From Tepidisphaeraceae bacterium (GTDB lineage: Bacteria; Planctomycetota; Phycisphaerae; Tepidisphaerales; Tepidisphaeraceae): a DNA stretch of 64,000 nt. Positions 3,706 through 62,431 of this stretch are shown here, piece by piece. The notes below the pieces were generated by a model. The model made no database searches. It was not told where the DNA came from and worked only from the letters and a program-made list of their open reading frames with translations. Position 1 is the first letter of the stretch; each line of letters opens with the position of its first letter. A program made the position numbers and the translations under genes. The stretch is taken from assembly GCA_035998445.1 (NCBI GenBank), contig DASYHQ010000039.1, forward strand, positions 1 to 64,000, in the 5' to 3' direction.

Positions 3706-4236
3706 ATGTCCAAGCAACTTCTCATCCTCGACGTGGACGAGACGCTCGTCTACGCCGACGAGAAGCCGCTAGCACGCGCCCCTGAATTCCGTGTCGGTCC
3801 GTTCCACGTCTACCGGCGTCCGTTCCTTCGCGAGTTCGTCACGGCCGTCGCCGATTGGTTCGACCTAGCCGTATGGTCCTCGGCCTCTGGCTCGTACGTT
3901 CATGGCGTCGTTGAGAACGTATTTGGTGTGCCGAACGCACTACGTTTCGTCTGGGCGTGCGACCGATGCACGCGGCGATATCATGCCGAGTTGCAGGAGC
4001 ACTATTACGCGAAGAATCTATCAAAGCTTCGGAAGCTCGGGTTCGAGCTCGAACGGATTCTGATGGTGGACGATTCACCAGAGAAGCTTTCACAGCACTA
4101 CGGCAATCACATCCGCGTGTCTCTGTTCACGGGCGACGAGTCAGATACCGAATTGCGAGATTTGCTGCCGTTTCTCGACTCGCTGCGAACCGCCGAGAAC
4201 GTTCGGCAGATTGAGAAGCGATTCTGGCGGCAGTGA
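3706..4236 (+). CDS. FCP1/SCP-like HAD phosphatase (NIF domain)
   Basis: A 176-residue HAD-superfamily phosphatase of the NLI-interacting factor/FCP1 type, known in eukaryotes to dephosphorylate the RNA polymerase II tail; the bacterial substrate is unknown. All motifs are present: DVDETL with nucleophile D9 and acid D11, VWSSAS at 56-61 (motif II), K103 in YAKNLSK (motif III) and VDDSPEK at 121-127 (motif IV). A CDRC pair (85-88) lies in the region where FCP1-like proteins carry an insert. GGGGAG precedes the ATG. It is the only gene in the cassette block with a clear family assignment. Its stop codon lies inside the 93-bp palindromic element, not an attC-like site. Confidence 0.85.
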   Translation: MSKQLLILDVDETLVYADEKPLARAPEFRVGPFHVYRRPFLREFVTAVADWFDLAVWSSASGSYVHGVVENVFGVPNALRFVWACDRCTRRYHAELQEHYYAKNLSKLRKLGFELERILMVDDSPEKLSQHYGNHIRVSLFTGDESDTELRDLLPFLDSLRTAENVRQIEKRFWRQ

Positions 4237-4324
4237 CGTAGGGTCCGCCGGTACTCCTGCGGACCGTTCCCGTCCCCGACCGAGAGGCGGTCCGCAGGAG
4301 TACCAGCGGACCCTACAAGACTGG
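4232..4324. repeat. 93-bp palindromic element, copy 2
   Basis: Near-identical to 5139-5231. Long arms (GGGTCCGCCGGTAC... / GTACCAGCGGACCC) enclose a ~20-nt loop. The element begins at AGTGACG, which supplies the TGA stop of the phosphatase gene, at the place where an attC site would be expected. Confidence 0.88.
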
Positions 4325-4780: not shown

Positions 4781-5140
4781 ATGGCATCATTAATCGCCAT
4801 CACTTCCGGCGCGGCGGACGGAGGGCTGCTAGCGCTCTGTCTCTTTGGGGTCGCCCCTGTCGCCCTGTTTGTACACTTGCTTGTGCGTCGGTTCGTTTTC
4901 GTCTCGCTGGTGATTTCGCTCGTGTTCGGCCTGTTTCTGCTTGGCCTCTGGCTCTATTTTGATGCAGGGGTTCCCGGGAGGAGATGGGTGAGCTTTCGGC
5001 TGGTGTGGGTCGGTTTCATAATCGCGATGGTCGTTAGCGCAATCGCAGGAATCCCCACGCTACTCGTCGGCGCATTCGGCGGTCCGAGAAGGCGGGATAA
5101 ACAGCCGCTGCAGCGGACCGGCGACGAGGGTAAACTGTAG
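4781..5140 (+). CDS. small membrane protein (cassette-borne, unknown function)
   Basis: A 119-residue protein with about four hydrophobic segments (residues 16-35, 38-60, 70-85 and 85-98) and a basic C-terminus. No family recognised. ATG 4781 lies six nt after attC-like site 6. The last ~15 codons read through what looks like the left half of another attC site (5097-5126) and then stop at TAG inside the 93-bp element. The original, shorter C-terminus was probably lost when the attC site was disrupted. Confidence 0.5.
   Translation: MASLIAITSGAADGGLLALCLFGVAPVALFVHLLVRRFVFVSLVISLVFGLFLLGLWLYFDAGVPGRRWVSFRLVWVGFIIAMVVSAIAGIPTLLVGAFGGPRRRDKQPLQRTGDEGKL
5097..5126 (+). other. left half of a disrupted attC-like site
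   Basis: ATAAACAGCCGCTGC followed by AGCGG-A-CCGGC matches the left box and left arm of the six intact sites, including the unpaired A. The right half is missing; the 93-bp palindromic element begins 13 nt further on. Confidence 0.55.
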
Positions 5141-5231
5141 TGACGTAGGGTCCGCCGGTACACCTGCGGACCGTTCCCGTCCCCGACCGAGAGGCGGTCC
5201 GCAGGAGTACCAGCGGACCCTACAAGACTGG
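5139..5231. repeat. 93-bp palindromic element, copy 3
   Basis: Differs from copy 2 by only one or two bases. Begins at AGTGACG and ends at AAGACTGG. It lies directly after the half attC-like site and 8 nt before the stop of the next, minus-strand gene. Confidence 0.88.
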
Positions 5232-8680: not shown

Positions 8681-8751
8681 AAGGTTGATTAGCCCGGTGG
8701 AGGTTCCTTGGGCCAATCATAGGCGCGGGGAAGGGGGATGCCAGTTTCCGG

Positions 8752-8865
8752 CCCCTCTCCCGGTACTCCGGGAGAGGCTGGGTGAGGGTGATTCGAACTG
8801 CTGACGGTTCGTGTTATTCGCAATCACCCTCACCCTAGCCCTCTCCCGGAGTACCGGGAGAGGGG
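8752..8865. repeat. palindromic repeat, CCCTCTCCCGG family
   Basis: Outer arms CCCCTCTCCCGG...CCGGGAGAGGGG, inner arms GGTGAGGGTGATT / AATCACCCTCACC. The same family occurs at 56450-56562, with half copies at 19620-19644 and 49161-49185. Confidence 0.88.
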
Positions 8866-8880
8866 ACCAGATAGTGAGTT

Positions 8881-10455
8881 TCAGGCCGCTTGGAGCAGCA
8901 GGCCGGTCTTTGTGCCCCACCGCAGCTTGCGGTAGGCCTGCACCATCACGTGGCTGCTTTGCAGCAGCGGTTGGAGCGTGTCGGCGGACAGATCGGACTG
9001 GTCGACGATCAGCCGCAGGCGCGGCAGTGGGTGGGCGTCGATCGACAGTTGGGGCAGCGCCATCGCCACCAGGCCGCGGTTCTCAATCAGCCAGTTATAC
9101 GCACGGCCGATGAGCTTCAGGTCGCCCAACCCCGTGCGGGCGGCGGCCAGCAGGACCAGGCCATGGTTACGATCGACGGCCAGGCGGGCTTCGGGGCACA
9201 TGGGCGGGCGGACGGCGCACTCGACGAGCGAGCCGGCCTCGTGCTGCACGATGGCCGACAGCAGCGAACCGGGGGAGGCGTCGGTGCCGGTGAGGTCGAC
9301 GACGTCTTCGATGACTTCCATTTTGTCCGCCACGGGTTGTACGAGTTTGAACGGGTCGGTCTGGCCCACCAGCGGCGCGATCGCGCGGGCCGGCGCGGTG
9401 CCTGCTGGCGCGGGGCCCGTGGGGGTGGATGGGACCATTCGCGGGGCATCCATCGGGATGTCGGCGATGTGGCGGACGCTTTCGCCGGGTGGCAGGGGTT
9501 CGTCGCTCACCAGCGCGGCCAGCTCGGCCTCGTCGGTCTCGCTGGTCACGTGCAGTTCCTCGGCGATGCTCGAGAGGAAGTGCCCCACGATCTCCCAATG
9601 CGTCACGGCGTCGCTGCCGTCACTTGCACTGCGGGCGCGAAGCAGGGGCAGTTCGATGAAGTTGTTGACCGCCGACACGCGGGGCTCGCAGTCGATCGGC
9701 CACTTTAAGAACTGCTGGCAGACACTGGCCAGCTTGGCGAAGACGCGGTCCGACTCTTCATCATCGTCGCCAATGGTTGCCAGCGACAGGCACGGCGCGT
9801 TGGCCTTCGATTCAGCGTCCATCGTCGCTGCGGGGCGGAACTCCGTCAGCCCCTTCAGCGTGCGGTAGCAGGCGACGACGCCGTCGTGGTCGCAGGTGCT
9901 CAGCAGCAGCCACTGCCCGATCTGGCCCAGGATCTGCCGCGCCTCGGGCGAACGGGGGTTGGGCAGCAGGACGAGCCACTGCACGACATCTTCGTGCAGC
10001 TCGTTCATCGCGTCGGCCACGTGCGAGAGGTCGCATTCCTGCCCAAGCACAGGAATAGCGACCGGGTCGGTCGAGGTCGAAGCTTCATCGCCCTCCGTGG
10101 CGAGTTCGAAGCTCGACAGGCGCAGCTCCGCTGCGTCCAACTCGATCAACCCAACGCGCCCCACCCGGCTGGCCAGGTGTCGCGCGTATTCCTTCACCCG
10201 ATCGAACTGCGACGAGCCAAGATGGTTGGCCAGCACCGCCGTCACGGGCACGTGGCGGATGGGGGCGTCGGCCGGTGCGCCGCACATCTGGGCGAACTCC
10301 TCGGGCGTCAGGTCGATGCTGACGTCCAGCTTCTTCCCGCCCGGCGGCACCCGCGTTGGCCGTGGTGCGCCACCGGTCTGCCGGTCGCGCACGCTGCTGA
10401 GGAACAGGTGCCCGATCTCGCTGAGGTTCTGATGGGGGTTCGGTTGGTCGGACAT
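8881..10455 (-). CDS. hypothetical protein linked to the ParA-CBM gene
   Basis: A 524-residue soluble protein of unknown function. The start is MSDQPNPHQ at 10455; the frame is open for 31 more codons upstream, but those are encoded by a palindromic repeat (10456-10560) and are unlikely to be native. Two halves of alpha/beta character (about 65-300 and 390-524) are joined by a Pro/Ala-rich linker (about 340-370). Short stretches such as VGLIELDAAEL recall ParA/MinD-like folds, but no Walker A motif is present. It follows the ParA-CBM gene on the same strand and may form an operon and a complex with it. Confidence 0.6.
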   Translation of the reverse strand: MSDQPNPHQNLSEIGHLFLSSVRDRQTGGAPRPTRVPPGGKKLDVSIDLTPEEFAQMCGAPADAPIRHVPVTAVLANHLGSSQFDRVKEYARHLASRVGRVGLIELDAAELRLSSFELATEGDEASTSTDPVAIPVLGQECDLSHVADAMNELHEDVVQWLVLLPNPRSPEARQILGQIGQWLLLSTCDHDGVVACYRTLKGLTEFRPAATMDAESKANAPCLSLATIGDDDEESDRVFAKLASVCQQFLKWPIDCEPRVSAVNNFIELPLLRARSASDGSDAVTHWEIVGHFLSSIAEELHVTSETDEAELAALVSDEPLPPGESVRHIADIPMDAPRMVPSTPTGPAPAGTAPARAIAPLVGQTDPFKLVQPVADKMEVIEDVVDLTGTDASPGSLLSAIVQHEAGSLVECAVRPPMCPEARLAVDRNHGLVLLAAARTGLGDLKLIGRAYNWLIENRGLVAMALPQLSIDAHPLPRLRLIVDQSDLSADTLQPLLQSSHVMVQAYRKLRWGTKTGLLLQAA

Positions 10456-10560
10456 GGGAATTTTCGATTTGCGATTTTCGATTTGCGATTGTGAAGTTCG
10501 ATTAGCGACGCCGACCTGATTCGCACAATCGCAAATCGGCAATCGCAAATCGAAAATCCC
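10456..10560. repeat. palindromic repeat, GATTTGCGATT family
   Basis: An imperfect palindrome built from GATTTGCGATT units in one arm and AATCGCAAATC units in the other, filling the whole gap between two genes. A second member is at 60436-60532. Confidence 0.88.
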
Positions 10561-10562
10561 AA

Positions 10563-11867
10563 CTACGCCACTTCCACCACGTTGTTCAGTTCACCGAACT
10601 CGTTCGACTCGACGGCGGTGTTGTTCGGGTCGTTGAGCCACTGGCCGTCAACGACGAAGCGGTACTTGTAGCGGCCGCGGGGCAGGGGCAGCGTGGTGGT
10701 CCACTGGCCGGGGGCCTTGGAGACCAGCGGCGTGCCGACCAGTGACCAGCCGTTGAAGTCGCCGGCGATCTGCACCTTGCGGGCCGAGTCGAAGCGGGCG
10801 GAGAAAAGGACCTCTTCACCCACCTGCTTCACGCCGTAGAAGTCTTCGATCTTCTGTTCGGTCGACTTCGCGGGTGCCGGGGTGACCGTGGCGGTTGGGT
10901 GGCCGAAGATCGACGTGCGCGGTGCAATCTCGGGCCGTTCGAGCACGGCAGTATTCGATTCGGTGATGACGGCGGGTGCCGCAGCGGTCATGCCGCCGCG
11001 ACCAAACTGGATGTTCGTCAGTTGCGCCAGCGCCTTGGCCCGCTGAACCAGTTCCGCCGGACGCGACATCTTCTCCATCGGCGTCGCTTCCACTTCGCTC
11101 GGGCGGTGGCCCATCAGCTCGCGGGCGAGGTTCACGAAGTCCTTGTAGCCACGGCTGCCGGGGTCGTACTCGGTGATCGGCTGGCCGAAGCTGGCGGCCT
11201 CCTTCAGCTTCGTGTTGAAGTTGACGGTGCTCTCCATCAGCTGGTCGCGAAACTTGTTGCGCAGCTCGCTCAGCACCTCGCGGGCCAGCTTCGTGCGCGT
11301 GTCGTACAGCGTGGGCAGCACGCGGATCAGCACGTCCTTCTCGCACTGCTCCTTCAGCACCTGCAGCGTCTCCATCTGCTTGGCCAGGCCGTGCAAGCTG
11401 AAGAAGCCCGTCTCCACGGGCACGATGCATTCGTCACAAGCGCGCAGCGCGTTGAACGTCAGCAGCCCGACGCTCGGCGGGCAGTCGATGATGCACCACT
11501 CGTAGCTGTCCTTCACGCCGGCCAGCGCCTTGGTCAGCCGATCCTCGCGACCCACCCGGCCGGCGAAGACCTGCTCGAACGCGCTCAGCTTGATGTTGCT
11601 GGGGGCCAGGTCGAAGTCGCTGGCGATCTGCCAGACGACCTCGTTGAGCTTGGCGACCTTGCCATCGCCGGGCTCGATCAGCGCGTCGTAGATCGTGCGC
11701 TCGATCTGCTCCTCCGGCACCGCCAGCCCGACGCCGCAGTGACCCTGAGGGTCGATGTCGACGAGGAGCGTCTTCTGTCCCAGGCGCGCCAGACAGGCGG
11801 CCAGATTGATCGCGGTGGTCGTCTTCCCACAACCGCCCTTTTGATTGATGATCGCTACGATTCGCAT
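10563..11867 (-). CDS. ParA-family ATPase fused to an AMPK/CBM48-type domain
   Basis: A 434-residue two-domain protein. Residues 1-270 are a ParA/Soj ATPase: deviant Walker A KGGCGKTT at 10-17, switch D with IDPQGH near 41-46, and CPPSVGLLTFNAL as Walker B region. After a linker, residues ~350-434 form an AMPK-type glycogen-binding module (VQIAGDFNGWS...GRYKYRFVVDG). ParA proteins use ATP-driven patterning to position DNA or protein complexes; the CBM suggests the cargo could be glycogen-like polysaccharide or a protein. No parB lies next to it. AAGGAAGG precedes the start at MRIVAI. The next gene downstream (8881-10455) is a likely partner. Confidence 0.88.
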   Translation of the reverse strand: MRIVAIINQKGGCGKTTTAINLAACLARLGQKTLLVDIDPQGHCGVGLAVPEEQIERTIYDALIEPGDGKVAKLNEVVWQIASDFDLAPSNIKLSAFEQVFAGRVGREDRLTKALAGVKDSYEWCIIDCPPSVGLLTFNALRACDECIVPVETGFFSLHGLAKQMETLQVLKEQCEKDVLIRVLPTLYDTRTKLAREVLSELRNKFRDQLMESTVNFNTKLKEAASFGQPITEYDPGSRGYKDFVNLARELMGHRPSEVEATPMEKMSRPAELVQRAKALAQLTNIQFGRGGMTAAAPAVITESNTAVLERPEIAPRTSIFGHPTATVTPAPAKSTEQKIEDFYGVKQVGEEVLFSARFDSARKVQIAGDFNGWSLVGTPLVSKAPGQWTTTLPLPRGRYKYRFVVDGQWLNDPNNTAVESNEFGELNNVVEVA

Positions 11868-12075: not shown

Positions 12076-12111
12076 GTCCGAGTTCGACGAAAAACGCGCC
12101 ACGCGAGGGTG

Positions 12112-12213
12112 TCCTCCCAAAGGGAGCCTTGCCGACCTGAGGGATCTGGAATGACGAGCGATTCGCGCCAGTGGGAGATCCCTCAGGTCGGCAAGCCTCC
12201 CATCGGGATGACA
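12112..12213. repeat. palindromic repeat, CATCCCGATGGGAG/CCTGAGGGATC family
   Basis: Arms GCCTTGCCGACCTGAGGGATC and GATCCCTCAGGTCGGCAAGCC flank a 30-40 nt loop; the right end reads CATCGGGATGACA. Further members are at 14164, 19655, 24354 and 34162. Confidence 0.88.
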
Positions 12214-12241
12214 GGCTATGACACGCTCTAGTTCATCGAAC

Positions 12242-13537
12242 TTAGGCCGCCACACTTTCGCTGGACGTTAGCCTCAGTACCGTCGGTACGTCAGCAGCCG
12301 GTGCCGGCGCGCCATCCGGCCGATACTCCGGCACGCACCATGAGAGCGCCCGCACCGCATCTGCCCTGCTGCCACGGCTGGCAGTGTCCAACACCGTCAG
12401 CATCTGGTCGATCTCGCTCGCCGACGCGGTCGGCAATTGCCAGACGCGAATCATCGGGTGATTCGTCGGCACGGCCCGCTCGTAGTCGCAGGCGAGTTCC
12501 TCATACAGCTTCTCGCCCGGCCGAATGCCGCTGAAGCGCACTTCGATGTCGTCGCCGGGCTTCAAGCCGTTTCGGCGGATCAGCTCGTGGGCCAGGTCGA
12601 GGATCTTCACCGGCTGGCCCATATCCAGGATGAACACCTCGCCACCGCGCGCGATTGCGCCGGCCTGCATGACCAGCTGGCTGGCCTCGGGGATCATCAT
12701 GAAGTAGCGCTTCATCTCCGGATGCGTCACCGTCACCGGCCCGCCGGCGTCGATCTGCTTCTGAAAGATCGGCACCACGCTCCCGCTGCTGCCCAGCACG
12801 TTGCCAAAGCGGACGGCGACGAAGCGGGTGGGGGAAGTGCCGAATGCCGAATGCCGAGTGCCGAATGAAAATGAAGCAGCGGAAGGGTCTTCCTCTTTCC
12901 TTCCACATTCGGCAATGGGCATTCGACATTCAGCATCGTTCAACGACTGCACATACAGCTCCGCCACGCGCTTCGTCGCGCCCATGACACTGGTGGGGTT
13001 GACGGCCTTGTCGGTGCTGACCATCACGAACGCGGCGACACCGTGTGCAGCGGCGGCGTCGGCGAGGGTTTTGGTGCCGAAGATGTTGTTCTTGATCGCC
13101 TCTCCGGGGTTCAGCTCCATCATGGGCACGTGCTTGTGCGCGGCGCAGTGGAACACCACCTGCGGTTGCTCGGCGGTGAAGATGTCGCCGATCCGGCCGG
13201 CGTCGCAGACGTCGGCAACGTACGGGCGAATGTCGGCGCCCATCCAGCGGTCGCGCAGCTCGCGGTCGATCTCGAACAGGGCGTTCTCGGCCCGCTCGAC
13301 CAGCAATAGCCGCTGCGGACAGAACCGGATCGCCTGCCGGCAGATCTCACTGCCGATGCTGCCGCCCGCCCCGGTCACCATCACCCGTTTGCCGGCCAAA
13401 AATCGCTGCAACTCGGGGGTGTCCAGATTTACCGGCGGTCGGCCGAGCAGATCGGACAGGGAAATTGTCGCGCGCGCAGGCGCTGGGTTTCCCTGAAGGA
13501 GCCGGCTGACGAAGCTGCGGAAAAGCGATGCGCTCAT
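12242..13537 (-). CDS. CapD/FlaA1-type nucleotide-sugar 4,6-dehydratase with in-frame repeat insertion
   Basis: A 431-residue short-chain-dehydrogenase-type enzyme of the polysaccharide biosynthesis protein family, which makes 4-keto-6-deoxy UDP-sugars for surface glycans. TGAGGSIGSE (55-64) binds NAD; AAHKHVPMME and STDKAVNPTSVMGATKR are the family's active-site signatures; RFGNVLGSSGSV and RPGEKLYEEL follow. It lacks the N-terminal four-helix membrane domain of full-length WbpM/CapD proteins, as in PglF-like soluble forms. Between VQSL and RFVAVRFGNV, where relatives have about six residues, there are about 38, encoded by a palindromic repeat (12828-12945). Confidence 0.88.
   Translation of the reverse strand: MSASLFRSFVSRLLQGNPAPARATISLSDLLGRPPVNLDTPELQRFLAGKRVMVTGAGGSIGSEICRQAIRFCPQRLLLVERAENALFEIDRELRDRWMGADIRPYVADVCDAGRIGDIFTAEQPQVVFHCAAHKHVPMMELNPGEAIKNNIFGTKTLADAAAAHGVAAFVMVSTDKAVNPTSVMGATKRVAELYVQSLNDAECRMPIAECGRKEEDPSAASFSFGTRHSAFGTSPTRFVAVRFGNVLGSSGSVVPIFQKQIDAGGPVTVTHPEMKRYFMMIPEASQLVMQAGAIARGGEVFILDMGQPVKILDLAHELIRRNGLKPGDDIEVRFSGIRPGEKLYEELACDYERAVPTNHPMIRVWQLPTASASEIDQMLTVLDTASRGSRADAVRALSWCVPEYRPDGAPAPAADVPTVLRLTSSESVAA
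12828..12945. repeat. palindromic repeat inserted in frame inside the capD-like gene
   Basis: Arms are built from GCCGAATGCCGAATGC-type units and their complements, with a GAAG-rich centre. It adds about 32 residues (AECRMPIAEC...RHSAFGTS) without breaking the frame. Boundaries are approximate. Confidence 0.82.
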
Positions 13538-14054: not shown

Positions 14055-14163
14055 GTGCTGTACTTTGGGTCGGAACGCAGAGGCGCGGAGGAAGAGGCGC
14101 AGAGTGACGCAGAGAAAGCGCGTTAAGGCTGGCGGACAGATCCCTGTCGCCTCTCCCGCGCTT

Positions 14164-14265
14164 GTCATCCCGATGGGAGCCTCAGGCGACCTGAGGGATC
14201 TCGAACCACGGACGGTTCGCGGCCGTGGGATCCCTCAGGTCGCTACCGCTCCCTTCGGGATGACA
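14164..14265. repeat. palindromic repeat, CATCCCGATGGGAG family, nested in another inverted repeat
   Basis: TGTCATCCCGATGGGAGCC...CGGGATGACA with inner GACCTGAGGGATC/GATCCCTCAGGTC arms. It is flanked at about 14070-14120 and 14455-14500 by an inverted pair of AACGCAGAGGCGC-type sequence. Apart from these the 13900-14510 gap has no gene. Confidence 0.85.
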
Positions 14266-14510
14266 GTGCCTTGACCGCTACGATTGAAGTGAGAGTGCTC
14301 AAGCCTTTAGAGTGATGCTCTAAGGATCGTGAATAATTCCCGCGTTCGATGAGTTTCGCTGTCCTCCAAGTCTCTCTTCCTTCCGTCATTGAAGTTATCG
14401 ATAGAAAAAGGGCGACGGTCGCATTCGACCGCCGCCCTCTGCTATCTACCGCAATTTCCTCAGCGTCCTCTGCGACTCCTCTGCGCCTCTGCGTTGAACC
14501 CGCAGATCGA

Positions 14511-19612: not shown

Positions 19613-19654
19613 GCTTGGTTCCCTCTCCCGGAACGCCGGGAGAGATTTGAGACG

Positions 19655-19758
19655 TGTCATCCCGATGGGAGGCTTGCCGACCTGAGGGGTCGCCCAAGGC
19701 CCCGAACCGTCCGTGGTTCCAGATCCCTCAGGTCGGCAAGCCTCCCATCGGGATGACA
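19655..19758. repeat. palindromic repeat, CATCCCGATGGGAG family
   Basis: TGTCATCCCGATGGGAGGC...GCCTCCCATCGGGATGACA, preceded at 19620-19644 by a half copy of the CCCTCTCCCGG family. The 19613-19911 gap holds only these and the terminator. Confidence 0.88.
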
Positions 19759-19850
19759 ACCGGGCGCGAAGCGACAGAGTTTTATCCGTTAGTCTAGCCT
19801 GTAGGGTCCGCTCAGGAGGAAGCCAAGGCGGCTTGAGCCGGATTGCGAAT

Positions 19851-24241: not shown

Positions 24242-24353
24242 CGAAAATGTCCCGCTTTGGTGTCGCGCTTATGTCCGAGACATTCAGTCTCGCATCAAAA
24301 CTTCTCGCTTCAGCCTTAAGCTAACGGACAAGAACCCCGCGTTGAACAGGGAC

Positions 24354-24458
24354 GTCTCATCTCGAGGGGAGGCTTGCCGCCCTGCCGGATCTCCCAAGGC
24401 CTAGAACCGTTCGTGGTTCGAGATCCCTCAGGTCGCTTAGGCTCCCATCGGGATGACA
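24354..24458. repeat. palindromic repeat, CATCCCGATGGGAG family
   Basis: Left arm is diverged; right end reads GATCCCTCAGGTCGC...CCCATCGGGATGACA. The remaining gap up to the rRNA terminator (24459-24650) shows no gene. Confidence 0.75.
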
Positions 24459-24651
24459 ACTGTGCGCGATCTGCCAGAGTTTAGTCCGATGGCATTTAAT
24501 GAAGCCGCCCAGTCTTGGTAGCGATCCGGTGCACCTATGAATCGACGATCTTACACTCGTCAATGGGGTGGACCAGTTGAAACAGTGAAAAGTCGGAAGC
24601 GCAATGGACGACAACTGACACGGCCGGCAGAGATGGGAAGAGGTACCAACG

Positions 24652-30186: not shown

Positions 30187-30223
30187 TAACCGTGGCATGG
30201 GCGTCTCGCCCATGCCACGGTTA
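30187..30223. repeat. GGCATGGGCG inverted repeat
   Basis: A perfect palindrome TAACCGTGGCATGGGCG / CGCCCATGCCACGGTTA with a short TCT loop. It lies between two convergent genes and belongs to the same family as the insertion inside smc. Confidence 0.88.
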
Positions 30224-33799: not shown

Positions 33800-33994
33800 C
33801 GGTTTAATGAACCGCCCGTCCCCCCGCTTCACGCAGGTGATCAAGAACGAAATCGGCCATCATCACCGTGGCATGGGCGTCTCGCCCATGCAAGTGGATT
33901 GGAACGGGAACTTCGATTTTTTGGGTATAGTTCCGACCACGCAACGAAACAAATCGAGTCATCCGGCCTCATTGCGAGCATGGGCGAGACGCTC

Positions 33995-34161: not shown

Positions 34162-34323
34162 TGTCATCCCGATGGGAGCCTAAAGGCTACAGGACAAAAC
34201 CCCGCGCAGTGCCCAACCTGTCCCCCCGAGGGGAGCGGTAGCGATCCGAGAGATCTCCCATAGCCACGAACCGTCAGCCGGTCGAGATCCCTCAGGTCGC
34301 CTTAGGCGACCATCGGGATGACA
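34162..34323. repeat. composite palindromic repeat, CATCCCGATGGGAG family
   Basis: Outer TGTCATCCCGATGGGAGCC and CATCGGGATGACA with additional GAGATC...GATCCCTCAGGTCGCC sequence inside, longer than other members and probably two fused units. The 33600-34418 gap contains only repeats and the terminator. Confidence 0.8.
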
Positions 34324-34418
34324 ACCGCTCGGAGGGGAACTCACTTTGACCCATCAGACAGTGCCGAATCTAACCGCTTTCACGATGACGAGGTCGCGAC
34401 AAGCGTGTAGCCCAAAAC

Positions 34419-49079: not shown

Positions 49080-49621
49080 GTCAAGGAAATTGCGTCTCGC
49101 GCCAGCGGCGAACCGGCCACCCCGTCACGATAACTGCCTGCTCGATATCATTGAGAAGCGCCTCCCCCGGCGTACCGGGAGAGGGGCCAGAGCAAGCGCG
49201 CGATCGCACAGACCACCTTCTGAGGTATCCCGAAGGATCCCTTCGTCTGCCGTAGCACGGGCGGCCCGCCCGTGGAGCCGCGGTACCCCGCGGCGTCGGA
49301 CGGTACGCCGTCCGAGCTAAAGCGCGCAAGCGATCTGCTCTGAAAAAATCGGTCCGCGTGCCACGGGTGGTACTCCACCCGTGCTTGCAATCTGACAGAA
49401 ACAGGCGGACTACCACCCGCGGCACCCGGAGATTTCCCTTCTCTCCGCCTAACCTGCTGTCCCTTCGCTGGCGCGATGGCTTATTGGGACGGTGTACAGT
49501 CCGACGCGTCGGAGGACCGACGCCATGGGCGAGCCGCCCATGCTAGGGGCAGACGTCGTCGACCCGGTCCTCAATCACCCACTCCGGATGACAGGGTTCT
49601 GCGACCTAAAGCCACGTTCCC
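49080..49621. other. intergenic region of degenerate repeats
   Basis: No gene. It holds a half copy of the CCCTCTCCCGG family (49161-49185), GGGCGGCCCGCCC and GGACGGTACGCCGTCC palindromes, and GCCACGGGTGG...CCACCCGTG sequence. Confidence 0.6.
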
Positions 49622-56387: not shown

Positions 56388-56449
56388 AGTGGCCGATTGT
56401 ATGCCGGGCGGGCTCGATTGGCGTGGATGGCGGTATGCCCCTTTCCGGC

Positions 56450-56562
56450 CCCTCTCCCGGTACTCCGGGGGAGGCTGGGTGGGGGTGATTGTTCCTCCGA
56501 GAACCGTCAGCAGTTCGAATGCACCCCCACCCTAACCCTCCCCCGGAGTACCGGTAGAGGGG
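56450..56562. repeat. palindromic repeat, CCCTCTCCCGG family
   Basis: CCCCTCTCCCGGTACTCCGG...CCGGAGTACCGGTAGAGGGG with inner GGTGGGGGTG/CACCCCCACC arms. Same family as 8752-8865. Confidence 0.88.
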
Positions 56563-56570
56563 ACCGGAGC

Positions 56571-59500
56571 CTACACCGTCGCCAGTTCTGCATCGGCATC
56601 GGCGCTGATTCGGCCGTGGCTGTCCACCTGGTCGAACTTCACGGCCACGCGCTTGCTCACGCCCTGCTCCTGCATCGTCACGCCGTACAGCGTGTCGGCG
56701 ATCTGCATCGTGCGCTTGCTGTGCGTAATGACGATGAACTGGCTGCGGTCCAGGAACTCCTGCACGATCAGGTTGAATCGCCCGTTGTTCGCCTCGTCCA
56801 GCGCAGCGTCCACTTCGTCCAGAATGCAGAACGGACTCGGCTTGCTCTTGAAGATGCTCATTAGCAGCGCGATGCACGTCATCGTCTTCTCGCCGCCCGA
56901 CAGCTGGCTGATCGTCACCGGCTTCTTGCCCGGCGGATGGGCGAGGATTTCGATGCCGGCATCCAGCGGGTCGATGCGCTTCATGATCGGCAGCTGCGTC
57001 TGACCGTCCGGCCCAATCGTGGCGGCGTGACCGGCGCGGTCCTCGATCTCCGTCTCCAGCACGATGTCGGCCTTACCCCCGCCGAACAGCTTGCGGAACA
57101 TCGCCTGGAAGTGCCCGCGGACGGTGTTGAACGTCTCCTCGAACCGCTTGCTGGATTCCTTGTTGATCTCGTCGATCAACTGTTCCAGCTGCCGCTTGCT
57201 GTCGGTTAAATCCGTGATCTGCGTCGCCAGGAACTTCTCGCGCGTCTCCAGCTCTTCCAGTTCGCTCAGCGAGTCCAGATTCACGTTGCCCAGCCGTTGG
57301 ATCTTCTCCTTCAGCTCCTTGATCTCGCCAGCCACCGCGGCCCAATCCATGTCCTCGGCCTTGTACCCTTCGCCGCCTTCCTCGCTCAGGCTGGCGTACT
57401 TGGCGGGCAGATCGAGTTGAAGTTCCTCAAGCGTGCGGGCGACCAGCGATTCCAGTCGCACGCGCTGCTCGCCGGCCTTCATCTGAAGGGAATGCAGTTC
57501 CCCTTCGATGCTGGCATGCTCGCCGCGCAGCGACTCGACCTGACCGCTCAGTTCCCGCACGGCGTCGCCGACGGTCTTCACCCGCTCGGTCAGCACGGCG
57601 ATCTGCTCGGTCAGCTCGTTCTGATTCTGCGTGAGCGCGGCCTGCGCCTGTTGCGCCGCCTGCAGTTCGTTTTGCACCTGCGGCTGGCGCACGACGACGT
57701 TGGCGACGCTCTTGGTCACGCGTTCCAACTGCTGCGTGAACTCGGCTACGTTCGACGTCAGCCGTTGCACCTGCTCGCGGCTGTTCAACTGCTTTTCCTG
57801 CACCTTGCCGAGCGCGACGCGAACCGTCGTCAGTTCCTCGTTGGCCGCCCGCAGCTGCTCAACGATGGTCCGCTGGCGGTCGGCCGATTCGTCGACGAAC
57901 TTCTGCGAATCGGCCTGTTTGCCGTCCCACAGTTGCCGTTGTTCGATTAGCGTCACTTCCTCGGTCTTCAGCTTGCCGGTCTGGTCGAGCATGGTCTGCA
58001 GCTCGCGATCCAGCAGCGGCTGCTCGCGCTTCAGCGCCATCTGCTTATCGTTGTTCTGCGACAGCAGGCTATTGATCTCCACCTTCTGCGTGTTGGCGGC
58101 GTACAGCGCGGTGCGCAGGCTGTTCTGCTCTTCCTCCATCGCCTTGGCCGACGCGTTGCCCTCGGTCAGCTGGGCCGACAACGACGCGATGCGCGCATCG
58201 ACCTCGGCAATTTGCTGATCCAGCGCGTCCAGCTCCGCGTGACGCGACAGCAGCCCCATGGCGGCCGTCAGCGGACCGGCGCGAAGCGTGCCGTCGGACT
58301 CGATCACCTCGCCCAGCTTCGTGACGTACCGCCACCCCGCCGGGCCGACGTTGTGCAGATCGGCGGCGGTGGTGAGGTCGTCGACGATCACCGTCTTACC
58401 AAGCAGGTGCTGAGCGACCGCGATACACTCGGCGTCGCAGCGGACGAGGTCGATCGCCAGGCGGATGCGGTGCGGGTGTTGGTTCCAGTCGTAGGCGTCC
58501 ACCGCATTGGCCGTGGCATGGGCGTCTCGCCCATGCGGGTCAGCAGGCGAAGATATTTGATTTAGGCCGATCGCCTCGGACTCGCCGCCCGTTTGAATAT
58601 AATCTTTCTGATTCTCCACACGCATGGGCGAGACGCCCATGCCACGGTGAAGAGCGTCCGCGGAGACGATGCTCACGCGGCCTTCCAGCGTCGCCAGCGT
58701 ATCGCCGGCGGCGTAGGCGAGGGTGGCGGTGTCGGCGACGAGCAGTTGGTCGCGGCCGTCCAAGGCGGCTTCGATCACGTGCGCGTGTTCGACGTCCACG
58801 CGCAACACGTCGGCCACCAACCCGCGGATGAACGGGAACTTCGTCTCACGCTGCCGCAGGACGGCCTTTACGCCTTCGCTCACGCCCTCGCGCTTGGCTT
58901 CCAGATCCTTCAAAACCTTTTGGCGCGAAAGCAGCCCGCTGCGATGTTCGCGGGCGGCGCCGAGCTGTTCGCTCGTCTGGCGGATCTGCGTGCCCAGGGC
59001 GGCGGCGTCGTTCTTCTTCGCCTCGATCTGGCGCTGCCGGTCGGCGATCTCGTCCAGCGCCACCGTCAGCTTCAGCGCCGCGGCGCTGCGCTGCACTTCC
59101 AGCGTCTCCAGGTCCCCCACCACCGTCCGGCGGCGCTCGGCGAGGCGCATCTGCTGGTTGGCGATGTTGCGACGCTCGATCTCGATCGCGCCAAGTCGGC
59201 TGTTCGTCTGCGCAAGCTTGCGCATTGCGTCGAGGATGGCCGCCTTGTGCTGCTCGACCTCTTTGTTCAGCTGGTTCTGTTGCAGCTGACCATCGCGGAA
59301 GGCCTGCTGGCGTTCGTCGATGTGCTTGCGGTGCTCGTCGAGCTGCTTCGTCAGCGTCTCAAGCATGCCCTGTTCGGTCTGCAGCGATGCCTGGGCCGAT
59401 TCCAGCCGTTTGGCGATCTCGGCCTTGTCGCGTTCGAACGACGCCAGCTGATCGGCGATCTGCTGCAGCTGTTGCTGGGCGTAACCCTGCCGCTGCTTGG

Positions 59501-60413
59501 CCGACTGCATCTGGGCCTTGGCCTGCACCAGTTCGTATTCCAGCTGCTGCTTGCGCTGCGTGTGCACCTCTAGGTCTTCGCGCTGCGCGGCCGCGGCGTT
59601 CTGGGCCTTTTGCAGGTCGCCGGTGGTGTCGTCTAGGTTGAACTGCGTATCTTCGAGCCGCTTCTCCAGCTCGTCCAGCCGGCCCTTGAAGGTGTGGTAC
59701 TCCTGCAGCGAGTACATCAGCCGCAGTTCGCTTAAGCGCTCGAAGTATTCCTGATAGTTGCGCGCCTTGCCGGCGGCGATCTTCACGCTGCGGAGGCGCT
59801 TTTCGACTTCCTCGACAATGTCGGTGACGCGGGCGAGGTTCTGGTCGACCTTTTCCAGCTTGCGCTGGGCTTCCTTCTTCTTCTGCTTGAACTTGGAGAT
59901 GCCGGCCGCCTCTTCGAAGATCAGGCGGCGTTCTTCGGGGTTGGCTTCCAGCAGGGCCGACACGCGGCCCTGTTCGATCACGCTGTAGGCATCGACGCCG
60001 ACGCCGGTGTCGAGGAACAGCTCGCGAATGTCCTTCAGGCGCGACGACGAGTTGTTCAGGTGATACTCACTGGAACTGTCGCGGAAGAGGCGGCGACCGA
60101 CGGCGACCTCGTCGACGTCGAGGTTCAGCGTGCGCTTGCCGTCCTCCTTGATCGGGTTCTCGAAGACGAGCGTGACCTCGGCCATGCCGGCGGGCTTGCG
60201 GCCACCGGAGCCGTTGAAGATCACGTCCATCATCGCGTCGCCGCGCAGGCTCTTGGCGCTCTGTTCGCCGAGCACCCACTTGAAGGCGTCGACGACGTTG
60301 CTCTTGCCGCACCCGTTGGGCCCGACGATGCCGGTGATCGGCGCGTCGAACACGAACTCGGTGCGGTCGGCGAAGCTCTTGAACCCCTGGACGATCAGCT
60401 TTTTCAGGCGCAC
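56571..60413 (-). CDS. smc: chromosome-condensation protein SMC with in-frame repeat insertion in the hinge
   Basis: A 1280-residue SMC ATPase that shapes and segregates the chromosome. N-terminal GPNGCGKSN (Walker A) near 33-41, two long coiled coils, a hinge at about 510-690, and a C-terminal head with LSGGEKTMTCIAL and ILDEVDAALDEAN. GTG 60413 is the start because GGAGG stands 7-8 nt before it and VRLKKLIVQGFKSF is the conserved N-terminus. The extra upstream codons come from a palindromic repeat. Residues about 589-634 (HRGMGVSPM...HGRDAHATA) are encoded by a palindromic repeat inserted in the hinge (58511-58647) and are absent from typical SMC proteins. No scpA or scpB is in the window. 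Confidence 0.95.
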   Translation of the reverse strand: MRLKKLIVQGFKSFADRTEFVFDAPITGIVGPNGCGKSNVVDAFKWVLGEQSAKSLRGDAMMDVIFNGSGGRKPAGMAEVTLVFENPIKEDGKRTLNLDVDEVAVGRRLFRDSSSEYHLNNSSSRLKDIRELFLDTGVGVDAYSVIEQGRVSALLEANPEERRLIFEEAAGISKFKQKKKEAQRKLEKVDQNLARVTDIVEEVEKRLRSVKIAAGKARNYQEYFERLSELRLMYSLQEYHTFKGRLDELEKRLEDTQFNLDDTTGDLQKAQNAAAAQREDLEVHTQRKQQLEYELVQAKAQMQSAKQRQGYAQQQLQQIADQLASFERDKAEIAKRLESAQASLQTEQGMLETLTKQLDEHRKHIDERQQAFRDGQLQQNQLNKEVEQHKAAILDAMRKLAQTNSRLGAIEIERRNIANQQMRLAERRRTVVGDLETLEVQRSAAALKLTVALDEIADRQRQIEAKKNDAAALGTQIRQTSEQLGAAREHRSGLLSRQKVLKDLEAKREGVSEGVKAVLRQRETKFPFIRGLVADVLRVDVEHAHVIEAALDGRDQLLVADTATLAYAAGDTLATLEGRVSIVSADALHRGMGVSPMRVENQKDYIQTGGESEAIGLNQISSPADPHGRDAHATANAVDAYDWNQHPHRIRLAIDLVRCDAECIAVAQHLLGKTVIVDDLTTAADLHNVGPAGWRYVTKLGEVIESDGTLRAGPLTAAMGLLSRHAELDALDQQIAEVDARIASLSAQLTEGNASAKAMEEEQNSLRTALYAANTQKVEINSLLSQNNDKQMALKREQPLLDRELQTMLDQTGKLKTEEVTLIEQRQLWDGKQADSQKFVDESADRQRTIVEQLRAANEELTTVRVALGKVQEKQLNSREQVQRLTSNVAEFTQQLERVTKSVANVVVRQPQVQNELQAAQQAQAALTQNQNELTEQIAVLTERVKTVGDAVRELSGQVESLRGEHASIEGELHSLQMKAGEQRVRLESLVARTLEELQLDLPAKYASLSEEGGEGYKAEDMDWAAVAGEIKELKEKIQRLGNVNLDSLSELEELETREKFLATQITDLTDSKRQLEQLIDEINKESSKRFEETFNTVRGHFQAMFRKLFGGGKADIVLETEIEDRAGHAATIGPDGQTQLPIMKRIDPLDAGIEILAHPPGKKPVTISQLSGGEKTMTCIALLMSIFKSKPSPFCILDEVDAALDEANNGRFNLIVQEFLDRSQFIVITHSKRTMQIADTLYGVTMQEQGVSKRVAVKFDQVDSHGRISADADAELATV
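58511..58647. repeat. GGCATGGGCG palindromic element inside smc
   Basis: Perfect 27-bp terminal inverted repeats (CCGTGGCATGGGCGTCTCGC and its complement) flank ~83 bp of less GC-rich sequence. Each arm is itself a hairpin. The reading frame stays open through the whole element. The arms occur alone at 30187-30223 and 33871-33891. Confidence 0.92.
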
Positions 60414-60435
60414 TGCGGCAGCCTCCGTGCTTGTG

Positions 60436-60532
60436 GATTGCCGATTTGCGATTTGCGATTGCCGATTAGCAAGCAAGGCCACGATGACGTGCCTACGCCT
60501 TCAATCGCAAATCGAAAATCGCAAATCGGCAG
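60436..60532. repeat. palindromic repeat, GATTTGCGATT family
   Basis: GATTGCCGATTTGCGATTTG and complementary CGAAAATCGCAAATCGGC arms; second member of the family at 10456-10560. Both copies sit directly upstream of a minus-strand start codon or stop. Confidence 0.86.
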
Positions 60533-60538
60533 TTCCCC

Positions 60539-62431
60539 CTACTCTCCGGCCGCCCGAGGTTCCTCGGCGGCGTCGACCTGGGGTCGACCGGTGCCGGGGA
60601 TGGCCGGGGCAGCGTAAATCGCGTCTTCGAATGCTTCGGATTCCTGCAGCACAAACGCGGTCTTCATCCGCGTGACCTGCGGTTGGCCGGTGGTGACGGC
60701 GCCCGCGTCCGGGCGGCTGATGACGCCGGCGCTGATCAGCTTCTGGTCGGCCATGCCCTGCACGAGCGCCACGATCTCGGCGTAGCCGAAGTTGAAGCGC
60801 CGCTCGCCGGTCGGTCCCTCGCCACCCAGCCGGGCGATGACCTCGGCGACGTCGGGCCGGCTTTCGACCTTCAGTGGCTGGCCGATGTCACGGCCGCGGT
60901 AGAACAGGTTGACGAACTTGTTCGCCTGGTCCGACGACACCTGAAACTCGCCGTTGAGGGCCGTGAAGATCATCGGCAGGTCGAGCGACAAGCGGTGGCC
61001 GAACAGCGCGATGCGCGGGATGCCGCCGCGCGTGGCGTAGATGAGTGGTGGGCCGTCGCTGTCGACGATGTCGAGCACGAACTGCTCGTTGATCACCTTG
61101 CTGTAGATGCTGCCGTCCGCGTTGGCCGCCAGCGTGCGGTAGGCCTCGACGCGCACGTCGTTCTGCTTGCTGTCGAGCAGGTCGCGCAACATCACGTTCA
61201 GCCCCGGCGAAGCGGGAAGTTGGCCGAGCGTTTCGGTGGCGGCCAACTGCATCGGGTGACCTTCGGTCTTGGCGATGCCCAGCAGCGCCTGCGGCGCTGA
61301 GGGATCGCCCAGGAACGCCGCTGCGCGGGCGGCGGCGTAGGTAACCTCAGGCGAGTTCTTCGTCGCGTCCATCAGCGGCACCAGGAACGGCAGCGCCGGC
61401 TGACCAAGCCCTTCGAACGCGTAGCTGATGTTCTTCAACATCGCGCCGGGCTTCACGGCCTCCTCGGCCAGCACGCGCGCCTGCCGTGCGGCGAACTCGG
61501 GCGAGGCGTTGGGGTACAGGTGCTGCACGATGCCGATGAAGTGTTCCCAGTCTGCCTCGTAGGCCTTGGGCACGAAGACGTTGATGATGCCTTCGTCCTG
61601 CGCCTCGGCGACGGTGTACGACGGCACGGTCGAGTTCCGCCGGAAGCGGTCGGCGACGTCCTGGAAGTACATGTTGATGCGGTTCTCGATCTGCCTCGCC
61701 GTGCTGCGCTGCGGCTGGCGCAGCTGCAGGCGGATCGGCCGGTCGATCATGCAGTGCCCACCGGCCAGCACCATGCCGTTGCGCAGGCTGCGCTTGGCGT
61801 TCCCGTTGTCGTCGGCCCGGTCGTTCAACGCGTAGGCGGGATTGACGAACACCGGCCCCTGCGCGCGGGCGTAGACGTTCACCGAGCCGGCGGGGTCGGT
61901 CTCGCGGAGGCCCAGGACGTGCAGATCGGTCTGATAGAGTGCGCCGCGCGCCAGGCTGGTTGCGTCGCTGGACGACAGCGTGTTAACGATGATGTCGAAC
62001 TGCTGCTTCCGCCGGGCGCCGGGCGGGATGAGGCCGCGCACCTCCACGATCGTGAAGCGCGGGTCGTCGAGCGCCCGGTCCGGGTTGATCGCTGACAACG
62101 TCGCCGAGTTGGCGCTGCCGAACCCGTGCCGGAGCATCTCCTTGGCCATGTAGTTTCTGACGGCGGTCGGGTAGGGCCCGCCACCCGTGCGGTCGAGGTT
62201 GGCGATCAGCCCATAGCCACTGACGACGAACGGGCCGATGTCGGCCAGGTTCGTCTTCTGCAGCACCGTGTCCTTCAGGTAGTGCGGCACCTCGCGCACC
62301 GGCAGCGTCTGGTACCGCGAGGCAGGCATCTTTGGCTTATTCTTGTCGCCACCGCAACCGAGAAGCAGCGTGCAGGATAAGCTCGCGACGAGCAACGGCG
62401 ACAGACGGGCGAGTTTGGCACGAGGCGTCAT
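60539..62431 (-). CDS. FlgI-like lipoprotein with HEAT-type repeats
   Basis: A 630-residue lipoprotein: signal peptide with lipobox LLLGC and acceptor Cys26. The N-terminal half (about residues 55-330) resembles the flagellar P-ring protein FlgI (VSGYGLIANLDRTGG; RLQLRQP near 240; INVFVP near 300). The region ~350-470 contains HEAT-like repeats (EVTYAAARAAAFLGDPSAPQALLGIAK), followed by an unassigned C-terminal part. GGAGGAA precedes ATG 62431. No other flagellar gene is present, so it may belong to a different envelope structure. Confidence 0.72.
   Translation of the reverse strand: MTPRAKLARLSPLLVASLSCTLLLGCGGDKNKPKMPASRYQTLPVREVPHYLKDTVLQKTNLADIGPFVVSGYGLIANLDRTGGGPYPTAVRNYMAKEMLRHGFGSANSATLSAINPDRALDDPRFTIVEVRGLIPPGARRKQQFDIIVNTLSSSDATSLARGALYQTDLHVLGLRETDPAGSVNVYARAQGPVFVNPAYALNDRADDNGNAKRSLRNGMVLAGGHCMIDRPIRLQLRQPQRSTARQIENRINMYFQDVADRFRRNSTVPSYTVAEAQDEGIINVFVPKAYEADWEHFIGIVQHLYPNASPEFAARQARVLAEEAVKPGAMLKNISYAFEGLGQPALPFLVPLMDATKNSPEVTYAAARAAAFLGDPSAPQALLGIAKTEGHPMQLAATETLGQLPASPGLNVMLRDLLDSKQNDVRVEAYRTLAANADGSIYSKVINEQFVLDIVDSDGPPLIYATRGGIPRIALFGHRLSLDLPMIFTALNGEFQVSSDQANKFVNLFYRGRDIGQPLKVESRPDVAEVIARLGGEGPTGERRFNFGYAEIVALVQGMADQKLISAGVISRPDAGAVTTGQPQVTRMKTAFVLQESEAFEDAIYAAPAIPGTGRPQVDAAEEPRAAGE

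Follow-up and report, generated by a model that had tools for sequence, protein, structure and literature searches.

A GTGG-footed REPIN in frame in the smc hinge of a Tepidisphaeraceae bacterium, and a probable cognate RAYT embedded in a helicase gene

Introduction

The closest described counterparts of the element reported here are the REPINs and BIMEs together with their RAYT transposases, in which two inverted REP hairpins with conserved ends enclose a diverged spacer, copy number is high and a single-copy RAYT lies within the same REPs (PMC3116915, PMC8049555); our element shares all of these features. RAYTs occur in single copy and are inherited vertically over very long times, and the persistence of REPIN populations is an open question (PMC8049555). 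The tetranucleotide foot of a REP helps to select the cleavage site, and in one system cleavage occurs at CC when the foot is GTGG (PMC8266576). REPs have also been reported within genes. A 2013 survey describes in-frame REPs and REP dimers in open reading frames, many of them encoding DNA-repair proteins, DnaE and tRNA synthetases, and REPs at about the same site in recB of two Xanthomonas species (PMC3733652). Rickettsia palindromic elements (reviewed in PMC10969869) resemble our element in being palindromic, in frame and conserved as a peptide in unrelated host proteins.

Here we describe a palindromic element in the hinge-coding part of smc of a Tepidisphaeraceae bacterium, its family in the genome and its counterparts in relatives. 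The explanation that we favour, at a probability of roughly 0.78, is a GTGG-footed REPIN family that has a RAYT inside a helicase gene as its probable mobiliser and survives in frame in tolerant loops.

Results

The host gene lies on the reverse strand at 56571..60482 of the window, by which we mean the whole stretch of DNA analysed (64,000 nucleotides). It encodes 1303 aa and was identified as smc from its open reading frame and its Pfam and NCBIfam matches (SMC_prok_B at 910.9 bits, where the cut-off is 567). As the first-pass annotation had described, a 137-bp element with perfect inverted ends of 27 bp each (CCGTGGCATGGGCGTCTCGCCCATGCG) lies in this gene at 58511..58647 (-) and keeps the reading frame open; its assignment to the hinge also holds, since the Pfam SMC_hinge match covers the insert on both sides. 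The first arm (58511..58537, +) consists of CC, the GTGG foot and a hairpin with a 9-bp stem and a TCT loop, and the second arm (58621..58647, -) is its perfect inverted copy. Folding recovered the 9-bp stem and TCT loop in each arm, with GTGG 5' of the stem, and the element as single-stranded DNA folded much more strongly than its shuffles (z -9.05). The spacer (58538..58620, -) diverges between copies, at ~60% identity, and has no codon-position bias. The inserted peptide, RGMGVSPM..SSPADPHGRDAHAT, comprises 45 codons (58512..58646, -) rather than the ~46 residues first estimated, and has the frame and orientation of six other genic copies.

The REP core was matched six times in the 64-kb window, against 0.00 expected, and was absent from 100 shuffles. 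Both free intergenic copies that had been pointed out near 30187 and 33871 are real and lie outside coding-like ORFs. One is a solo REP at 33866..33892 (+); the other, at 30190..30220, is a fully self-complementary 31-mer forming a perfect hairpin with a 14-bp stem, which on its appearance may be a collapsed REPIN. A degenerate REP of the same type as the smc arms, with 2 mismatches, is found at 49523..49545 (-). Genome-wide (5.84 Mb, 64 contigs), the core gave 227/237 matches with at most 3 mismatches, and 90 two-ended elements with exact inverted ends were detected; the reversed controls gave 0 in both searches. CCGTGG and the hairpin CATGGGCGTCTCGCCCATGC are nearly invariant at both ends of the 63 copies examined, whose spacers are only ~60% identical. 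We identify the smc element as a REPIN, in which a diverged spacer separates two mutually inverted REP hairpins; each hairpin has GTGG on its 5' side, a variant of the GTAG foot that is usual. Its copies are numerous, dispersed and mainly extragenic (56/63), and the genome contains a RAYT flanked by REPs of the same family. The CC immediately 5' of GTGG would fit the published pairing of GTGG with CC cleavage. Rfam gave no match.

Several other repeat families were observed in the window. An inverted-repeat family with long palindromic structure (TGTCATCCCGATGGGAGGCTTGCCGACCTGAGGGATC) occurs at 12095-12243, 14126-14267, 19651-19795, 24351-24488 and 34216-34328, and a GTAG-footed REP-like family (GTAGGGTCCGCCGGTACTCCTGCGGACC) forms near-identical 93-bp palindromes at 4231-4323 and 5139-5231 and is also present at 43-83. 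Palindromes of the CTCTCCCGG type are located at 8735-8865, 49160-49191 and 56432-56562; a related type is found in the smc hinge loop of G015 (L060) and in an insert of this genome's valS. Copies of CGATTTGCGATT / AATCGCAAATCG, tandem and inverted, lie at 10455-10580 and 60432-60542, one set being near the start of smc.

Among the eight Y1_Tnp matches in the genome, only one locus (L035) has exact copies of the smc element's REP at its borders. It carries a RAYT, present in single copy, whose frame runs stop-free from one half of a DinG/YoaA-type helicase to the other. Located between the two helicase matches, the embedded protein scored above the Pfam cut-off for Y1_Tnp and at 72.1 bits (E 4e-20) for REP_Tyr_transpos, short of the NCBIfam cut-off of 80, which counts against the favoured reading. 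Homologs are found after motif III, at the same position of the helicase and with inverted-repeat flanks, in G005, G010, G013, G020, G021 and probably G003, where the contig is cut; the arrangement is thus found at one site in six or seven genera, and the genome of G013 is a single contig. The site contains only REP-type peptides in G001 and G022, and the loop is short and empty in G004, G007, G008, G012, G023 and G024. The helicase-embedded RAYTs are monophyletic, and the REPs that flank them differ from genome to genome.

The openness of the RAYT frame is by itself uninformative, because stops in the RAYT would break the helicase too, and the relevant evidence for selection is therefore codon-position bias. 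Divergence by codon position (0.375/0.311/0.637) shows, as judged from the aligned sequences, that helicase-embedded RAYTs are under purifying selection. The motif regions expected of a RAYT, HUH (NHVH) and Tyr (Y..N), are intact in all six aligned proteins. We infer that the L035 RAYT is probably the mobiliser of the GTGG REPINs. It is unlikely that a different transposase moves them, with the embedded RAYT passively carried along: another of the eight Y1_Tnp loci does reach 155.7 bits, above the RAYT cut-off, but exact REP flanks are found only at the helicase-embedded locus, and the purifying selection on the embedded protein speaks against a mere passenger.

Within the 63 copies, a non-random sample in which some regions were chosen for being genic, 56 are outside coding-like ORFs and seven are in long ORFs. 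The in-gene tally combines these 63 copies with a whole-genome peptide profile search, in which a profile of the seven genic peptides ranked exactly those seven far above the rest. Based on NCBIfam, the hosts are smc, dnaE, purL, valS (two copies), an indolepyruvate ferredoxin oxidoreductase gene and carB. In all seven the core measures exactly 129 bp and has one orientation and one frame, with the peptide layout RGMGVSPM, ~27 residues and AD-x-HGRDAHAT; no gene contains any of the 51 copies that differ in length. Across the order, the peptide family gave more than a marginal match only in this genome, and a literature search for peptides of the GMGVSPM/HGRDAHAT type returned nothing. Many of the genomes are metagenome bins, and repeats can misassemble; we nevertheless give almost no credence to the genic palindromes being assembly or gene-calling artefacts, or to their hosts being pseudogenes, since third-position GC is high in frame on both sides of 7/7 genic copies, the host genes match their families over the full length, and the helicase-RAYT arrangement recurs in six or seven genomes, including single-contig G013. 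In-frame inserts of other repeat types were also read from the translations of valS, carB and the oxidoreductase gene; in carB (L162 4695-8648, (-)), two further in-frame inserts of a VGAGLRARP..GGHGGPPL repeat type lie beside the REPIN.

Spacer variability among the genic copies was 0.40, 0.42 and 0.41 at codon positions 1, 2 and 3, respectively. Because the spacer varies equally at all three positions, the peptide bears no sign of selection. In an AlphaFold model of the hinge (18 aligned hinges), mean pLDDT was 84.8 and values fell below 50 only at residues 126-166, nearly all of them insert, so that the hinge is predicted to be intact and the insert disordered. The smc insert is best read, on this model, as a tolerated flexible loop. 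The first-pass suggestion that such elements create new protein segments is not borne out, given the predicted disorder and the equal variability at the three codon positions. Neither the smc nor the helicase ORF matched an intein or Hint family, and self-splicing is not indicated. The idea that the genic copies form a distinct conserved peptide sub-family was considered and rejected; their mean identity was not above that of random sets (permutation 0.35), and their codon-position variability was flat.

We compared the hinge loop across the order, which consists of one family and is represented by 26 genomes, most of them metagenome bins, 22 with a hinge match; the named loci of relatives are from Tepidisphaeraceae and other Phycisphaerae MAGs. 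In most relatives the smc hinge site is empty. Palindromes of other REP families occupy the same loop in G001/G022, G010, G015, G016 and G020 (at least five other genera), and a palindrome-ended insert is also present at this loop in G026, which belongs to a different family. Spacer lengths of the loop inserts vary widely between genomes. A reading of the smc insert as a long-standing functional domain of the hinge that selection has kept, its palindrome being incidental, is very improbable. Several genera do have extra residues at the same loop, which in G003, G004 and G011 is long and has no clear palindromes, but the alignment of relatives' SMC proteins, a check proposed at first pass, argues against an ancient domain common to all because most of them lack the segment. 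Furthermore, unrelated proteins of the genome contain the same peptide at six further places, its spacer has no codon-position bias, and the insert is predicted to be disordered.

Repeated insertion at the smc site is instead supported, in this sequence comparison, by the empty sites and the other palindromes found there in relatives. It is also conceivable, but doubtful, that a single ancestral insertion was lost in many lineages and had its arms overwritten by the resident REP family through concerted evolution, the site being no recurrent target. The monophyletic helicase RAYTs with differing flanking REPs do indicate that arms at an inherited site can change. However, presence of the smc insert is scattered on a DinG + SMC tree, with 6 changes, at least 2 of them forced by well-supported branches; G015 has a palindrome of an unrelated CTCTCCC type, and a palindromic insert is missing from the closely related G002 and G009; and the spacer lengths are widely different. 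A tree of the host DinG alone was mostly unresolved and was dropped in favour of the DinG + SMC tree.

In G010 and G020, one REP type is common to the smc insert and the helicase-RAYT flank. In cross-counts over the sampled genomes those REPs proved repetitive, and the reversed controls gave 0, although the genomes overlap in their REP types and G020 has a weak excess of its own type. As a point against the favoured reading, G016 has many REPs, yet no close relative of the L035 RAYT was detected there at E 1e-8, in a genome whose dinG locus is truncated. The loop in the editing domain of valS shows a similar pattern, with REP-type peptides in G000, G016 and G001, another repeat-like segment in G004, and a short loop in G019, G023, G003 and G008.

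Across the class, 159 of 198 genomes have a RAYT match. Most of these RAYTs are free-standing and embedding is a minority state; those in long ORFs are found in LeuS (G096, G106), ValS (G122, G117), GcvP (G092) and DUF1156-type proteins (G009, G004). The RAYTs embedded in LeuS, ValS and GcvP, and that in L267, are above the REP_Tyr_transpos cut-off (80). A different type of Y1 transposase is encoded in frame within the ValS of G012 (L378 1-3513, (+)), where SPERERGV/PLAHARGS peptides border it; it occupies roughly the loop that holds the RAYT in the ValS proteins of G117 and G122. A second RAYT lineage is represented in G000 (L034 1372-3030, (-)), where a VGQAFLPV peptide joins the RAYT in frame to the C-terminus of ThiD2-ThiE and a GTAGGACAGGCATTCCTG inverted repeat forms the flanks; similar frames of 579-594 aa contain the related RAYTs of G003, G013 and G022. 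We lean slightly towards a general view in which Phycisphaerae RAYTs are non-splicing in-frame passengers of useful or essential genes (DinG-type helicase, ValS, LeuS, GcvP, DUF1156 methylase, the ThiE tail), co-translated and so shielded against loss; their REPINs would repeatedly occupy tolerant loops of other essential proteins, and the whole would amount to intein-like persistence without splicing.

Discussion

Taken together, the observations are consistent with non-autonomous, two-hairpin, GTGG-footed REPINs having spread across this Tepidisphaeraceae genome, probably mobilised by the single-copy RAYT, an HUH/Tyr transposase with the same REPs at its flanks. Most copies would persist between genes. 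The seven in genes, each a net 135 bp (45 codons) with one open frame at a site that tolerates a flexible loop, apparently survived because of this length, open frame and loop-tolerant position; in smc the tolerant site would be a disordered linker within the hinge domain. The RAYT, in frame and stop-free in the DinG/YoaA-type helicase gene, would be translated as an internal domain, and this embedding may favour persistence of the transposase, since any decay that broke the frame would also harm the host gene. If a RAYT is locked in the frame of a helicase or a tRNA synthetase, its decay by frameshift or stop would be selected against via the host gene, which, if true, would be a simple and testable reason for RAYT persistence. 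SMC, DnaE and ValS take 45-residue inserts at particular loops and so may provide a map of natural permissive sites. One RAYT survey left out members that were longer than expected, treating them as fusions or errors (PMC6006769); surveys that drop over-long transposases in this way would overlook embedded RAYTs.

In comparison with described REPINs and BIMEs, our element has a GTGG foot where GTAG is usual, some copies are in frame in housekeeping genes, and the RAYT gene lies inside another gene. The smc insert itself is another member of the in-frame REP kind described in the accessible part of the 2013 survey, which likewise includes REP dimers in genes for DnaE and tRNA synthetases (PMC3733652). 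Relative to that part of the survey, our case differs in that one 45-codon form occurs seven times in a single frame and orientation, that the smc hinge loop is filled by different REP families across one bacterial family, and that the RAYT-bearing element is itself genic, an embedded RAYT not being described in those sections. Our literature search, which covered open-access papers, found no report of a RAYT in frame within another gene and nothing relevant on fused RAYTs, and the embedded transposase is a less expected part of the system than the in-frame palindromes. The parallel with Rickettsia palindromic elements drawn by the first-pass annotation stands as regards behaviour (in-frame insertion into loops of essential proteins, with one frame preferred) and less so as regards identity, for which a REPIN with a probable cognate RAYT fits better; our element belongs to another phylum and has a transposase with matching ends. 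Inteins with homing endonucleases place a mobile-element protein in frame in an essential gene, where loss by frameshift harms the host. The embedded RAYT is likewise a mobile-element protein in frame in a host gene; in contrast to inteins, no splicing domain was detected with the families searched, and the RAYT and the REPIN are predicted to stay in their host proteins as a domain or a loop.
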